From IMG/VR virus record IMGVR_UViG_3300031885_000107, positions 1 to 25,275 of that record: a DNA stretch of 25,275 nt; one strand, 5' to 3'. The notes beneath the pieces were generated by a model. That model was not told the origin of the DNA. It ran no database searches and was given only the letters and a program-made list of their open reading frames with translations. The stretch comes from a virus. The translations under genes and the position numbers were made by a program. This document shows positions 13,981 through 19,166 of this stretch, piece by piece (position 1 is the stretch's first letter; every line of letters begins with the position of its first letter).

Positions 13981-14337
13981 ATGAAACTAGTTGAATTGCT
14001 AAATGCACAGCCAGCTTTACAGCGGCTTATGGCCCAGAAGATGCCGGCTAAGGTGGCCTACGCTATCGCTAAGAACGTTAAAATGATAACACCCGAGCTT
14101 GTGACTTATGATGAGACACGAGTTAAGCTGCTCAAGGAGAACTGGGAACTAAACCCGAAAACAAACCAGTACGACATTCCTGACGAGGACCGAGAGAAGT
14201 GGCAAAAGATGCATCTGGAGCTCCTCGACGAGGAGGTGAAGATCGATCCATACATGATTGACCTCACCGCGTTGGATGGAGTCGAACTGGCGCCAAATGA
14301 GGTTATAGCTATCGAATGGATGCTTAAGGAGAAGTAA
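13981..14337 (+). CDS. DUF1617-like phage protein
   Basis: A 118-residue, mostly helical acidic protein with the pattern of DUF1617 phage proteins: LVELLNAQPALQRLMAQKMP, then KVAYAIAKNVKMI, a charged central helix, LDEEVKIDP and a C-terminal LDGVELAPNEVIAIEWML. The family is usually encoded after the tail fibre in Gram-positive-type siphophages; its function is not established. ATG 13981 is preferred to ATG 13966 because GAGGAG at 13968-13973 then lies at a proper distance. It is the last gene of the virion block before the integrase. Confidence 0.65.
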   Translation: MKLVELLNAQPALQRLMAQKMPAKVAYAIAKNVKMITPELVTYDETRVKLLKENWELNPKTNQYDIPDEDREKWQKMHLELLDEEVKIDPYMIDLTALDGVELAPNEVIAIEWMLKEK

Positions 14338-14477: not shown

Positions 14478-14496
14478 TTCTACAATCTGGGTGATT

Positions 14497-15648
14497 ATGA
14501 AGAAACATACAGAGCGTGGAACTGGATCGATCCGGCAGCTGGCCAATGGAAGATGGAGAGCTGAAATCCGAATTAACGGAGGTAGATTATCTCATTATTC
14601 GGAGAGGCAGCAGGATTGTAGGGACTGGATCCGAAAGATCCAGGGTCAGGTGGATCAGGGTTTATCTTATGACGATGAGAGGATCACCCTGGGGACATTT
14701 ATGGAAGGGTGGCTAGGGAATAAAAAGCTTCAGGTCAGGATGGCGACATTCGAGCAATATTCATCGATCGTTAAAACATACCTCCAGCCCAACCTGGGGA
14801 GGATCCGGCTGCGAGATCTATCCTCCGGCCAGGTCCAGGATTATTATGATCAATTATCGACTTCCGGAAAAGGGACCAGGACGATCAGGCTCGCTCACAT
14901 TGTTCTGCATGGGTGTCTGGAGCAAGCCAAGCGCCTGGGCCTGATCCATCGAAATCCGACCGAATTCTGTGCGCTTCCCAGGCAAGGAGAAAAGGATATC
15001 CAGATCTGGAATGAGGACCAGGTCGCTCAGTTTTTGAATTTCATCCGGGGTCATAAAAATGAGCATTTTTATTATTTGGCCCTGGGGACCGGCATGCGGA
15101 GAGGGGAGCTATTGGGCCTACAGTGGAAAGATATTAACTGGAGTAAAAGCCAGATCCTGGTCCGTCGAGAGTGTTTTCACCCAGCCGGTGGAGGGTTTGT
15201 TTTCCAGTCTCCGAAAACGAAGCTGGGAAAGCGCTCGATCCAGCTGGGCCAGGGAGTGGTTGAGCATTTGAGAGCTCAGCTGCAGCTGATCGATCTTGAG
15301 CGGAAAATGGCCAGGGATGCCTGGCAGGATAACGATCTTGTTTTTCCATCAATGGTCGGCACTCCGATCGGAGCTGATCGGATCTCTCATGAATTCCCAG
15401 CTCTGACCAAGCTAGCCGGACTGCCGGTGATCCGTTTCCATGACTGCCGGCATACGGCAGCCTCGATCATGCTCAGTCATGGGATCCCTCCGGTGATCGT
15501 GGCTGGGATGCTGGGTCACTCACTATCGATCTTAATGACCACTTATGCTCATTACATACCAGGCTCCCAGGATGAGGCAGCTCGGGTGATGGACGATATT
15601 CTCTCACCCATTCCCATTAACATTAAACAGTTTAAACCGAATAGCTGA
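14497..15648 (+). CDS. int: Tyrosine-family site-specific integrase
   Basis: A 383-residue phage integrase. Residues 1-55 look like the arm-binding AP2-like beta domain (GTGSIRQLANGRWRAEIRI). Residues 65-160 form the SAM-like core-binding domain. The rest is the catalytic domain with the expected residues: Arg in GTGMRRGEL (about 201), Lys in SPKTKLGKRSI, His-x-x-Arg in HDCRHTAAS (315/318), His in MLGHS (341) and the nucleophile Tyr in LMTTYAHY (about 350). It would recombine the attP at 15845-15900 with a host tRNA-Arg gene. The start is ATG 14497 or the in-frame GTG 14491; neither has a strong ribosome site and the leader is very short. The gene has the GATC-rich signature (about 26 sites in 1.15 kb by hand count). 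Confidence 0.95.
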   Translation: MKKHTERGTGSIRQLANGRWRAEIRINGGRLSHYSERQQDCRDWIRKIQGQVDQGLSYDDERITLGTFMEGWLGNKKLQVRMATFEQYSSIVKTYLQPNLGRIRLRDLSSGQVQDYYDQLSTSGKGTRTIRLAHIVLHGCLEQAKRLGLIHRNPTEFCALPRQGEKDIQIWNEDQVAQFLNFIRGHKNEHFYYLALGTGMRRGELLGLQWKDINWSKSQILVRRECFHPAGGGFVFQSPKTKLGKRSIQLGQGVVEHLRAQLQLIDLERKMARDAWQDNDLVFPSMVGTPIGADRISHEFPALTKLAGLPVIRFHDCRHTAASIMLSHGIPPVIVAGMLGHSLSILMTTYAHYIPGSQDEAARVMDDILSPIPINIKQFKPNS

Positions 15649-15732: not shown

Positions 15733-15770
15733 ACTATTATTCCCCAGGGATCCATCCTGGCTCATTCCAG

Positions 15771-15792
15771 AGGCGCTTTAAAGGCGCTTTAA
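15771..15792 (+). repeat. attP left arm: two tandem copies of AGGCGCTTTAA
   Basis: Two exact head-to-tail 11-bp copies, ending 52 bases before the att core. An identical pair lies on the other side of the core, and the shared block including flanks is 24 bp. Paired direct repeats around a core are the expected layout of integrase arm-type sites. Confidence 0.6.
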
Positions 15793-15844
15793 TTTGGCCT
15801 TATTATGAAAATCTGGGAAAATTGGCAGAATCTACTCGATAAAT

Positions 15845-15900
15845 TGGCGCCCCCGGCGGGATTCGAACCCACAACCGTCTGATCCGAAGTCAGATGCTAC
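15845..15900 (-). other. attP: attP core: 3' part of a tRNA-Arg (anticodon TCG) gene
   Basis: On the minus strand this is the 3' portion of a tRNA: anticodon arm TCTGA-CTTCGGA-TCAGA (anticodon TCG, Arg), T-arm GTGGG-TTCGAAT-CCCGC, 3' acceptor strand CGGGGGC, discriminator G and encoded CCA. The 5' acceptor strand and D-arm are missing: sequence upstream of GCATCTGAC is unrelated. This is the normal form of an attP that rebuilds the tRNA-Arg 3' end after integration. Phage genes lie on both sides, so it is attP rather than attL/attR. Confidence 0.85.
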
Positions 15901-15948: not shown

Positions 15949-15984
15949 AAAAAGCCTCAGAATTGAGATCCTGAGGCTTTTTTT
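15949..15984 (+). terminator. Strong intrinsic terminator (works on both strands)
   Basis: A 12-bp stem AAAAAGCCTCAG / CTGAGGCTTTTT with a 10-nt loop, followed on the plus strand by a run of seven T. The mirror-image A run gives a T run on the minus strand too. It insulates the integrase/att region from the tRNA and leftward operon. Confidence 0.85.
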
Positions 15985-16004: not shown

Positions 16005-16013
16005 GGTTTCTGG

Positions 16014-16035
16014 AGGCGCTTTAAAGGCGCTTTAA
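16014..16035 (+). repeat. attP right arm: two tandem copies of AGGCGCTTTAA
   Basis: Exact repeat of the left-arm pair, 114 bases beyond the core, followed by a degenerate third copy (TGGCGCTCGAG). Confidence 0.6.
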
Positions 16036-16057
16036 TGGCGCTCGAGTTTGTTTTAAG

Positions 16058-16076
16058 ATTTCATCCACTATGAAAT
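16058..16076. repeat. Inverted repeat ATTTCAT/ATGAAAT
   Basis: A perfect 7-bp inverted repeat with a 5-base spacer between the attP right arm and the tRNA-like gene. It may be a protein site; no other evidence. Confidence 0.35.
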
Positions 16077-16105
16077 TCATCGTTTCCATGTTACGATGAT
16101 TATGT

Positions 16106-16178
16106 GCCCCGGTAGCTCAATGGTTGGAGCAATTGCATGCTAAGCTTTAGGTTATGAGTTCGAATCTCATCCGGGGCG
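16106..16178 (+). tRNA. Atypical phage tRNA-like gene, anticodon GCU (Ser), class I body
   Basis: The cloverleaf is excellent except for one arm. Acceptor GCCCCGG/CCGGGGC is 7/7; D-arm GCTC/GAGC is 4/4 with GG in the loop; T-arm ATGAG-TTCGAAT-CTCAT is 5/5; the variable loop is AGGTT. The anticodon arm ATTGC-ATGCTAA-GCTTT pairs at only 3 of 5 positions (two T-T mismatches). U33 and A37 frame the anticodon GCU, which reads Ser AGC/AGU, but real tRNA-Ser has a long variable arm and this does not. Discriminator is G and CCA is not encoded. It may be a degenerate tRNA, a decoy, or a tRNA charged with another amino acid. Confidence 0.7.
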
Positions 16179-16213
16179 CAGATTATTTGTTCTATTAACA
16201 AATGTTACAATTG

Positions 16214-16222
16214 TGTTATAAT
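16214..16222 (+). promoter_or_regulatory. Extended -10 promoter for a possible small RNA
   Basis: TGTTATAAT: consensus -10 TATAAT (16217-16222) with TG one base upstream, the same extended -10 design as the integrase promoter. The -35 is poor. The expected start is near 16228. Confidence 0.55.
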
Positions 16223-16227
16223 ATTAT

Positions 16228-16313
16228 TAGCATGCAGCTCTTTATTGAGCTAAACCTAAAGTAGTAATGGCGATTCAGTTCCACTTGCCGGCCCCGCCCC
16301 AGAGATGGGGCGG
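16228..16313 (+). ncRNA. Candidate small RNA complementary to the tRNA-like anticodon arm
   Basis: The region lies between an extended -10 promoter and a GC hairpin. It has a 5-bp hairpin AGCTC-TTTATT-GAGCT near its 5' end. TTAGCATGCA (16227-16236) is the exact reverse complement of tRNA anticodon-loop bases 16134-16143, and AACCTAAAG (16253-16261) of tRNA bases 16145-16153. The order of the two complements is permuted, so it is not a simple inverted duplication. Existence of the RNA is inferred. Confidence 0.35.
16294..16313. terminator. GC-rich hairpin between converging transcripts
   Basis: Perfect 7-bp stem CCGCCCC / GGGGCGG with loop AGAGAT, followed by TGTGCTTT. The T run is weak, but its place at the 3' end of the leftward methyltransferase gene and the possible rightward small RNA fits a shared terminator. 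Confidence 0.5.
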
Positions 16314-16319
16314 TGTGCT

Positions 16320-17930
16320 TTAAAGGTCAAGCTTTCGCTGCTTACCCTCATTTTCTTTCACTCTTTGGGCAGTCATGAATGTGCCTGTTTCGGGAGGCAT
16401 TTGGACCATAGCTCCGGCTAAAATCTGTTCGACGGTTAGGATCTGCAAGCGTGGGAAGGATCTATTCCAGAACTCTGATTTGTAATATCCGGCTGTGGAT
16501 GCAGCCGTAGTCATATCCCGAGTTGGATTGTCGAGGGTGATCAATACACCGATCTCGGCATGTTCATTGTTCAATGTGCCGATGAGATCTCGGATCGTAC
16601 CGCTATTAACATGACCTGATTTAACCTGGACCAGGACCCGCTTGAGCTCCTGTTTAGCTGAATCGATATAGTTTATTACTCCATCGATGCCTTTGTCACT
16701 GCCTTTTTTACCTGTACCTCCCAATTCGAATCCGCCGAGTGGTTTGGCACCAACCAATGATAGCGCCCACCACTGGAATTGATACCGGTCGCGCTGGGCC
16801 AGGTCACGAGCTGAGCCAAGATCCTTAGGTTTGCCAACCACTTCGAATTGGATCCCTGGAAACATAGCTTTCATGCGGTTCTCTACAAGATTAATGGAGA
16901 GGTAGGTGATATCAATACCGATCCAGTGGCGGCCAAGCTTTTCCGCAGCTGCAATTGCAGTACCACAGCCACAGAAGGGATCCAGTAGAAGATCGCCGGG
17001 ATTGGTACTAGCTTGAACGATGCGTTCTAATAGGGCTAATGGTTTTTGAGTCGGGTATCCTAAACGCTCAGCAGCTTGTGAGTTTATGGGAGGCAAATCA
17101 TCCCAGATATCTTGTAAGGGTGTGCCTGGCATTTCATCAAGATAACGAATATATTCTGCGCCACCTGATTTCGTATAATGAAGCCTGCCCAAATCATGCA
17201 ATTCTTGCATGCGTGATTTAGGACAGCGCCAAATTTTTGTTATCCCATTCCATTCGTAAGTATATCCACCACCTGACAAACCGGTTGCTGTTAAATCCCC
17301 AGTTCGAAATTTTCTTCCATTTTCGTCTGTATAACGGTAATGGCTTTCTGTATACTTGGCGTCATATGGTTGATAAAATTTATTCCAGATAAATTCCCTA
17401 CTCTTAGTGTAAAATAAAATAATATCATGGGAATTTCCTAAAGTTTTCGAATCACTGTGGGCACTGGTTCGTTTCCAGATTATCTCACTAGAAAAGTATT
17501 GAAACCCGAAAACTGAATCTAATACAATTTTAAGATAATGGCTAGCAGTTGGATCGCAATGCAGGTAAATGCTGCCAGTGGGTTTAAGCACTCGCTGCAG
17601 CTCCACAAGACGAGCTGCCATCATAACCAGGTAAGCCAGCATCTGATTCTCACCGATGATGGTACGCAAGGCAGCCAGAAGGTCATCCACAGTGCCTGGA
17701 TTGGCCTGGAGGATGTCGAGGTAAGCCTGCTCAGCTGAAGGTCCCCAGTGCCAGGTGTCATCGAAAGCGGTGATCTGTGCATCAGAGGATATCCCGCTTT
17801 CATTTTTGAAAAGGACGTTATATGATCTAGATGAATTAAAAGGCGGATCCAGATAGATCAGGTCGACTGAATTGGCCGGCATGGAGCGCAGAATGGGGAG
17901 GTTATCACCAAAATAAAGGGTGTTGGTCAT
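16320..17930 (-). CDS. DNA methyltransferase fused to Mrr-like restriction endonuclease domain
   Basis: A 536-residue two-domain protein. Residues 1-350 are a beta-class N6-adenine/N4-cytosine methyltransferase: catalytic motif DPPF (28-31) comes first, and the AdoMet-binding part with TQKP (294-297) and LDPFCGCGT (316-324) comes later. Residues 390-510 are a PD-(D/E)xK nuclease of Mrr type: GSDKGIDG (410-417) and VQVKSG (434-439) supply the Asp and the Gln/Lys of the active site, and GVLITLDNPTRDM follows. One chain could therefore modify and cut DNA, a compact restriction-modification or modification-dependent system. It is last in the leftward operon with the repressor, so it should be made in the lysogen and could protect it from other phages. 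Target sequence and whether the nuclease is active cannot be seen. Confidence 0.85.
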   Translation of the reverse strand: MTNTLYFGDNLPILRSMPANSVDLIYLDPPFNSSRSYNVLFKNESGISSDAQITAFDDTWHWGPSAEQAYLDILQANPGTVDDLLAALRTIIGENQMLAYLVMMAARLVELQRVLKPTGSIYLHCDPTASHYLKIVLDSVFGFQYFSSEIIWKRTSAHSDSKTLGNSHDIILFYTKSREFIWNKFYQPYDAKYTESHYRYTDENGRKFRTGDLTATGLSGGGYTYEWNGITKIWRCPKSRMQELHDLGRLHYTKSGGAEYIRYLDEMPGTPLQDIWDDLPPINSQAAERLGYPTQKPLALLERIVQASTNPGDLLLDPFCGCGTAIAAAEKLGRHWIGIDITYLSINLVENRMKAMFPGIQFEVVGKPKDLGSARDLAQRDRYQFQWWALSLVGAKPLGGFELGGTGKKGSDKGIDGVINYIDSAKQELKRVLVQVKSGHVNSGTIRDLIGTLNNEHAEIGVLITLDNPTRDMTTAASTAGYYKSEFWNRSFPRLQILTVEQILAGAMVQMPPETGTFMTAQRVKENEGKQRKLDL

Positions 17931-18439: not shown

Positions 18440-18802
18440 CTATTTCAAGCGTTTATAACCGTGGGACTTCAACCATTGCTCGAGCCAGCGGTCAAAATCA
18501 AGCTCGAGGGTTGGATAATCATTGGGGGAAATGATGTGATAAATCTCCTCGAGCTCATTTATGGCTTTTGGCGGATGAGCAACATCCATTATATCGTAAA
18601 CCTCCGGGCCTAATTTTACAGCAAGTTTGCGCATAGAACCTAAACCCGGCTTTCCGTTTCCATTCATCCATTGTGTGACGAGTGCATGATTTATATTCAA
18701 CCAGCGGCTGAACTGGCGAATGCTGGCTCTGCCATTGTCCATCTGCCAAAGTAAATATTGCTTCTCGAGATAATCGCTGAAACCAGTTTGTTTTTGGATC
18801 AT
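18440..18802 (-). CDS. Phage repressor (XRE-type HTH, CI-like)
   Basis: A 120-residue protein with an XRE helix-turn-helix at about residues 27-71 (SIRQFSRWLNINHALVTQWM ... SMRKLAVKLGPEVYDIM). The C-terminal 45 residues are charged and helical, probably for dimerisation. There is no LexA/CI-type self-cleaving protease domain, so induction must work in another way. It is divergent from the Cro-like gene across about 100 bases containing promoters and a palindromic operator. No ribosome site precedes ATG 18802, and the nearest minus-strand TATAAT puts the transcript start about two bases before it: the mRNA is probably leaderless, as in lambda cI made from pRM. Confidence 0.8.
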   Translation of the reverse strand: MIQKQTGFSDYLEKQYLLWQMDNGRASIRQFSRWLNINHALVTQWMNGNGKPGLGSMRKLAVKLGPEVYDIMDVAHPPKAINELEEIYHIISPNDYPTLELDFDRWLEQWLKSHGYKRLK

Positions 18803-18810
18803 TTTTATTA

Positions 18811-18838
18811 ATTATAGTATCAAAACTATTGACAAATC
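18811..18838 (-). promoter_or_regulatory. Leftward promoter of the lysogeny operon
   Basis: TATAAT on the minus strand (18816-18811) with only a weak -35 (GATTTG at 18838-18833, 16-base spacing). It overlaps the -35 region of the rightward early promoter, so the two compete. A weak -35 suggests it needs activation by its own repressor. Confidence 0.55.
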
Positions 18839-18856
18839 CTTACAATTATGTATAAT
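18829..18856 (+). promoter_or_regulatory. Rightward early promoter (pR-like)
   Basis: Perfect sigma70 elements TTGACA (18829-18834) and TATAAT (18851-18856) with a 16-base spacer. It drives the early operon starting with the Cro-like gene. Confidence 0.85.
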
Positions 18857-18872
18857 GGTTAATAATTAACCA
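18856..18872. promoter_or_regulatory. Palindromic operator over the early transcription start
   Basis: TGGTTAATAATTAACCA is a perfect 17-bp palindrome around a central A, lying immediately after the -10 of the early promoter. Binding there would block rightward transcription. A different weaker inverted repeat (ATAGT ... ACTAT) lies between the two promoters at about 18813-18828. Confidence 0.7.
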
Positions 18873-18902
18873 ATGTGAGTAATCAATACAATCGATAGTG
18901 AT

Positions 18903-19166
18903 ATGAACATTCCAACAATCATTTCAAAATATCGGGGCGAAAAGAGCCTCCGTACCTTCGCCGCAGAAGTTTCTGAGAGGATGCCTGAACCGATTACTTA
19001 TCAGACGATCAAGAACTGGGAGGATGAGGTTACGAGGCCATCTTATTATTTTATGCTTGCAATTGCACTCCATAATGACGACTGGCGCCGAACGATGGCG
19101 CTGGAGATCCTGGCAGTATTGAAGCCTGGGTATTACACACCTGACCAGTTGAAAATAATTACATAA
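18903..19166 (+). CDS. Cro-like HTH regulator
   Basis: An 87-residue protein, first gene of the rightward early operon and divergent from the repressor. Residues 5-60 form an XRE-like helix-turn-helix (KSLRTFAAEVSERM ... TYQTIKNWEDEVTRPSYYFM). The C-terminus is short and helical. By position it should be the Cro counterpart that shuts off repressor synthesis and favours lytic growth. No strong ribosome site is visible upstream of ATG 18903 (the nearest purines are GATAGTGAT). Family call is good; the Cro role is inferred. Confidence 0.7.
   Translation: MNIPTIISKYRGEKSLRTFAAEVSERMPEPITYQTIKNWEDEVTRPSYYFMLAIALHNDDWRRTMALEILAVLKPGYYTPDQLKIIT

Follow-up and report, generated by a model that had tools for sequence, protein, structure and literature searches.

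A candidate two-RNA antisense module beside the attachment site of a temperate phage

Why does a temperate phage carry, beside its attachment site, a tRNA-like gene followed directly by a near-consensus promoter that reads into a short stretch complementary to that gene? A sequence-only reading of the locus had proposed a small RNA antisense to the anticodon arm of the neighbouring tRNA. Here we analysed one whole IMG/VR record (IMGVR_UViG_3300031885_000107; 25,275 bases, hereafter the window) and a relative, IMGVR_UViG_3300049914_000191 (L060/L004), so that the module was compared in two phages (n=2). The reading that we favour, at somewhat less than even confidence, is that of a two-gene antisense RNA module beside attP, in which one RNA (RNA2) would pair with the other (RNA1) and keep it inactive.

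The window comes from a temperate tailed phage and encodes a major tail protein and a tape measure. At 9-1601 it also encodes a 530-residue protein with many degenerate ~22-residue repeats (TAGSYxxSGNNAxL...) and no family match. A tyrosine integrase (14491-15648, + strand; Pfam PF00589, 8.6e-24) anchored the gene-order comparison with L060, and the attP core is the 3′ part of a host tRNA-Arg (15833-15894, − strand; partial tRNA match, 29.7 bits); both lie outside the RNA module. The attB tRNA-Arg was not found in 299 Bacillota genomes. Identical 24-nt tandem repeats (AGGCGCTTTAAAGGCGCTTTAA and neighbours) at 15770-15793 and 16013-16036 flank the attP core in the manner of integrase arm sites. 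L060 carries a different repeat pair (GGTTGCACACGGATTACTCACGA / GGTTGCACACGGATTGCACACGA) at the equivalent positions, so that arm-site specificity seems to have changed along with the integrase. Between attP and the RNA module lies a strong two-way terminator (15949-15982), with an equivalent hairpin in L060. On the other side, convergent with the module, is a gene for a DNA methyltransferase (16320-17930, − strand) with a fused C-terminal part that is Mrr-like, or NACHT-associated inactive nuclease-like; the protein has more than 50 relatives in viral contigs. Further right, a perfect (12/12) early sigma-70 promoter (18829-18856) is located between a small regulator-like gene (18440-18802, − strand) and rightward genes from 18903. 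This arrangement is probably the lysogeny switch, and the same kind of 12/12 promoter is found at 19726 of L060.

RNA1 (16104-16179, + strand) is a tRNA-like RNA with a tRNA-Arg(UCU)-type body, as judged by Rfam, ARAGORN and alignment to phage tRNA-Arg(TCT/CCT). It matched the entire Rfam tRNA model (RF00005) with 60 bits, and its acceptor, D and T stems are perfect, as in the cloverleaf of an elongator tRNA. The anticodon stem is broken by two U-U mismatches (U28-U42 and U29-U41), and the anticodon GCU led ARAGORN to call Ser on an Arg-type body from which the long Ser variable arm is absent. RNA1 lacks, that is, the paired anticodon stem and the body-matched anticodon of an elongator tRNA. 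No CCA is encoded, which is common among tRNA genes. The nearest relatives of RNA1 in phage records are tRNA-Arg genes, the two examined having TCT and CCT anticodons: those of Stenotrophomonas phage Mendera and Corynebacterium phage P1201 (UCU/CCU) matched over the full length at ~72-76%. Unlike these phage tRNAs, RNA1 has an altered anticodon arm (GCU, two U-U mismatches), no CCA and an adjoining antisense partner. Judged by its sequence, RNA1 looks repurposed, a tRNA body with an altered anticodon arm, and it is this arm that RNA2 matches. The conserved leader of RNA1 (16043-16104, + strand) comprises CGAGTTTGTTTTAAG (16043-16057) and TAnnATGATTATG (16092-16104). Both blocks are also present in L060, identical except for two bases of a TAnnAT hexamer. 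No convincing consensus promoter was seen for RNA1; the leader, which ends at the RNA1 start, would be a plausible weak promoter.

Downstream of RNA1, where the sequence-only reading had noticed a rightward extended −10 element, there is indeed a near-consensus sigma-70 promoter for RNA2 (TTAACA-16-TATAAT with extended TG; 16195-16222, + strand; 11/12), with TTAACA at 16195-16200, a 16-nt spacer and TG-T-TATAAT at 16214-16222. Sites with at least 11/12 matches to the sigma-70 consensus are few: three on the + strand and none on the − strand of the 25-kb window, and two on the + strand and none on the − strand of the 21-kb L060 locus. These include, in each phage, both the promoter of RNA2 and the consensus one next to the regulator-like gene. 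This rarity suggests that RNA2 is likely to be strongly transcribed from its sigma-70 promoter. The predicted small RNA (16229-16319, + strand; ~85-90 nt) was delimited from the promoter, the hairpin and the conserved layout, with its start at 16229, ~7 nt past the −10. Its 5′ ~33 nt would be antisense to RNA1 and be followed by a small hairpin and then by a terminal hairpin. The first antisense segment, previously placed at the RNA 5′ end, lies there for the most part, its first two bases preceding the predicted start.

The GC hairpin said to end the region was located at 16294-16313, with a weak T tail (TGTGCTTTAA), within a conserved element (CCCCGCCCCAGAGATGGGGCGGTGTGCTTTAA; 16292-16322, + strand) that is the probable 3′ end of RNA2. 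In both phages RNA2 has its own strong promoter and the hairpin is conserved (94.7% identical over 38 nt in L060), the T tail being weak. Such conservation is unusually strict for a terminator. A nearly identical hairpin (CCCCGCCCCAGNRATGGGGCGGTGTGCTTTAA) lies behind a small gene at 14114-14145 of an otherwise unrelated phage, L070. Searched with the hairpin pattern, the 84,980 species of the genome collection gave nothing, and viral contigs only L060's contig and L070; an exact pattern search of viral contigs with the RNA2 5′ hairpin returned none. All three copies of the terminal hairpin read APPQ(R/K/Q)WGGVL-stop in one frame. A conserved peptide across them (APPQxWGGVL) was considered and set aside: the L060 frame has no usual start codon, and the hairpin itself is thus the simpler explanation.

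The antisense stretch of RNA2 (16227-16261, + strand) contains three exact segments (10, 9 and 9 nt) and a 4-nt match. Two of the three, of 10 and 9 nt, had been described before and both are exact. The anticodon-loop segment of RNA1 (TGCATGCTAA; 16134-16143, + strand) can pair with TTAGCATGCA (16227-16236) over 10 nt, and the segment spanning its 3′ anticodon strand and variable loop (CTTTAGGTT; 16145-16153, + strand) with AACCTAAAG (16253-16261) over 9 nt. The third, which the sequence-only reading lacked, is an exact 9-nt match of the D-arm segment (TAGCTCAAT; 16113-16121, + strand) to ATTGAGCTA (16244-16252). Together with a short GCTC/GAGC match between the segments, ~32 of the 35 nt of 16227-16261 can pair with RNA1. 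In a reverse-strand DNA alignment (TAGCTCAAT--AAAGAGC---TGCATGCTAA against TAGCTCAATGGTTGGAGCAATTGCATGCTAA) only one of the three blocks falls out of register. The order of the matches, previously called permuted, is so for the variable-loop segment CTTTAGGTT only; the anticodon-loop and D-arm segments are collinear with RNA1. From this alignment, the first ~35 nt of RNA2 are largely a diverged inverted copy of the RNA1 5′ half.

Could such complementarity arise by chance? The exact-match score of the window was reached by 5/20,000 dinucleotide shuffles, and only 1/20,000 covered as many bases. Each 9-mer of the window is found just twice in its 25 kb, once per RNA. Elsewhere in the two phages the matching words are almost absent; tRNAs in general often contain the D-arm word TAGCTCAA. 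When the same two-segment geometry was slid along the phage's own DNA, the alignment score ranked 57th among 7,025 overlapping placements (top ~1%). In the phage's own DNA the match is thus unusual rather than extreme, which makes the window alone suggestive and not conclusive. When the 160 promoter-like sites of all retrieved loci were ranked by flanking complementarity, L060 tied for 1st place and the window came 7th, so that promoters with inverted repeats around them are not uncommon. The control sets and statistics were picked after the window had been seen, and the sole independent test is L060, whose regions were defined by the promoter and hairpin positions following sequence inspection.

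Gene order, flanks, the position of the RNA2 promoter and the terminal hairpin are all kept in L060. Its integrase is 63% identical to that of the window, its methyltransferase 71% and its attP core 93.5% over 62 nt. From the attP core to the hairpin the stretch measures ~390 bp in both phages, but its middle has been replaced and is not alignable. The elements CGAGTTTGTTTTAAG and ATGATTATG, just 5′ of RNA1, are kept, and a near-consensus RNA2 promoter (TTGACA-17-TATGAT; L060 16115-16143; 11/12) stands at the equivalent position. A tRNA is absent from the place of RNA1. The L060 RNA1 has a 14-bp terminal stem (GCTGGTATCTATGC/GCATGGATACCAGC; predicted fold); inspection also shows an inner hairpin, the loop of which has 7 nt. 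The predicted L060 RNA2 starts with AGGGTAACTCAGCAGTAACTCTACCATGC, antisense to TCTATGCTGGTGGAGTTACGAGTTAC of L060 RNA1, and the part of RNA1 paired with the RNA2 5′ end corresponds between the phages (nt 9-39 in the window, nt 7-33 in L060). The L060 complementarity extends over 24-26 aligned nt, with an alignment score that none of 5,907 alternative placements along the L060 genome reached. Its exact-match score was reached by 12/20,000 shuffles. GAGTTAC is tandemly repeated in L060, which inflates the number of exact matches, and for this reason the covered bases, a weaker measure, were equalled by 370/20,000.

The sequence-only reading had named interaction prediction and covariation between related phages as checks, and had held that its proposal would fall if relatives lost the complementarity as the tRNA changed. 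The predicted hybridisation gain of the cognate pair was −6.0 kcal/mol in the window (2/300 shuffles) and −4.6 kcal/mol in L060 (4/300 shuffles), while both mixed combinations of RNA1 and RNA2 gave 0.0. In L060 the tRNA is absent and both sequences have been replaced, yet the complementarity was retained (n=2), as expected of an antisense pair; this points to a functioning RNA switch more than to coincidence. Because the promoter and the complementarity recur after sequence replacement, we read the locus as a two-RNA antisense module. The L060 RNA1 is a different structured RNA, which points to a pairing that is phage-specific, with the module acting as a private lock and key. Since the L060 partner is not a tRNA and the window tRNA looks repurposed, the theme appears to be an antisense RNA pair and not tRNA targeting as such. 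A predicted small RNA from 16229 that is complementary to the tRNA-like RNA1 is thus supported, and what changes from the original proposal is its scope: three segments instead of two, of which two are collinear, coverage of the D arm as well as the anticodon arm, and a partner that need not be a tRNA.

Carriers of the module were found in two phages only, the window and L060. DNA similarity searches of phage records with the module region returned only tRNA genes for the window and nothing for L060. Alignment of the integrase to genomes and viral contigs gave one distant genome match, L060's contig and two fragments ending within the integrase, and a search with the C-terminal integrase piece led to two contigs (L077 and L078) with other attP regions and no module. 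Among the other contigs with the same methyltransferase (L005-L057) there was neither a tRNA nor a second copy of the module. Partial attP-like matches in L042 and L068 were rejected, both being unrelated at that place. In the open literature we found no precedent for a phage RNA antisense to a neighbouring tRNA.

The two regions might also belong to a single ~210-nt transcript that starts at the RNA1 promoter, ends at the terminal hairpin and serves as a cis-acting switch or structured RNA, with the internal promoter secondary. In both phages a joint fold is predicted in which a long-range helix connects the same two parts (z −3.3 and −4.1 against shuffles), and the lengths are similar (216 and 215 nt). 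A near-consensus promoter nevertheless lies inside the supposed RNA in both phages, its position kept and its sequence replaced, and there is no downstream + strand gene to control; we regard a single transcript as unlikely. It is likewise doubtful that the complementarity is the remnant of an inverted partial duplication of the tRNA-like gene, without a present role, or a coincidence. The collinearity of the anticodon-loop and D-arm segments with the tRNA speaks for a remnant, as the modest rank of the window in its own DNA speaks for either. In L060, however, an unrelated sequence is complementary at the same RNA positions and is the best placement in its genome, and it is improbable that each of two near-consensus promoters should, by independent events, be followed by such a remnant.

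Alternatively, the signal may reside in the DNA, with a DNA-binding protein using the inverted repeats around the RNA2 promoter as paired sites of the operator, excision or integrase-arm type. The module lies just to the right of the integrase arm sites, whose repeats, like the module, are replaced between the phages, and inverted repeats surround strong promoters elsewhere too, for example the L060 early promoter. When the repeat words were sought at the lysogeny switch and the arm sites they were not found, which weakens the operator reading, and in the window one arm of the repeat is part of the tRNA-like gene that matches the tRNA model with 60 bits. We consider a DNA-level signal quite improbable.

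The two-RNA antisense module can be compared with known systems. The complementary stretches of P4 lie on one strand, ~100 nt apart, and the IstR-1 inhibitor RNA is constitutive. The P4 CI RNA (seqA/seqB/seqC) is a processed antisense RNA that acts on its own leader (PMC4825925). In the module, too, one RNA is complementary to a stretch of leader encoded on its own strand, but RNA2 has its own strong promoter and is not processed out of a leader. In addition, no replication genes follow, and no operon lies directly downstream on the + strand for premature termination of the P4 type. In IstR-1/tisB, adjacent non-overlapping RNA genes share a partial complementarity of 21 nt (PMC4147584). The module similarly has two predicted RNA genes that are adjacent, non-overlapping and partly complementary, of which one would be a constitutive inhibitor, but its genes are tandem and those of IstR-1/tisB divergent. 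The complementarity between adjacent genes exceeds the ~18 nt expected of type I systems, with 28 nt in three exact blocks in the window and 24-26 aligned nt in L060. A type I toxin-antitoxin of the IstR/tisB kind, with RNA1 as a small-peptide mRNA read from the conserved ATGATTATG and RNA2 as the antitoxin, is very unlikely: although an antitoxin would be expected to have a strong promoter, as RNA2 does, and the frame from ATGATTATG is open for 34 codons in L060 and 15 in the window, the two frames encode unlike peptides with no Shine-Dalgarno sequence, so that no toxic peptide frame with a ribosome-binding site is shared, and the window RNA1 is a strong tRNA homologue.

The c4 RNA of P1/P7 is a phage-borne RNA of ~77 nt that RNase P cuts as it would a tRNA and that is antisense to a nearby same-strand RNA; its short loop sequences vary between related phages, and a few loop bases set heteroimmunity (PMC5320573, PMC12197685). 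The module shares with c4 an antisense RNA directed at a nearby same-strand RNA and sequences that differ between relatives. The replacement of both RNAs together between related phages is, as with c4, the pattern expected of a specificity system (immunity or exclusion). The c4 target is an antirepressor mRNA, whereas no credible + strand gene was found between 16320 and 18903, downstream of the module, and the recognised protein switch of the window phage lies elsewhere (18440-18903). At E values of up to 5, neither the window nor L060 matched the Rfam c4 covariance model. In its logic the module thus resembles P1/P7 c4, P4 CI and IstR/tisB, and the tests made do not place it in any of them; as it departs from each in at least one defining feature, we assign it to the general kind of antisense RNA pair.

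We propose that RNA2 (16229 to ~16319) would be made from a strong constitutive sigma-70 promoter and end at the conserved hairpin, and that RNA1 (16104-16179), the immediate upstream neighbour of RNA2 in the same orientation, would have a promoter that is weaker or subject to regulation. The first ~35 nt of RNA2 would pair with the 5′ half of RNA1 in vivo and hold it inactive, probably in the prophage state. In excess, probably in the lytic phase, RNA1 would escape RNA2 and act. Here RNA1 would be a repurposed tRNA-Arg-type RNA, and in L060 a different structured RNA. RNA1 might act as a tRNA decoy, as an antisense RNA in its own right or, least likely, as a small-peptide mRNA. A more far-reaching possibility, which we hold only tentatively and think unlikely as a whole, is a new phage RNA switch: in a hypervariable cassette beside attP, a former tRNA gene would serve as the partner, regulator or regulated, of an antisense small RNA dedicated to it. 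The two RNAs would be replaced together, so that each phage had its private lock and key, be it for immunity, for exclusion or for the timing of lysis.

Antisense RNA switches of phages are known in detail from few systems, and the usual explanations for phage tRNA genes are codon usage or evasion of defences that cleave tRNAs. If the proposed model is true, a tRNA would have been taken over as one partner in an antisense pair, and the two halves of the module would change together while its position and layout stay constant. A conserved frame around a middle that is replaced but still complementary may then offer a route to such RNA switches by genome comparison alone.
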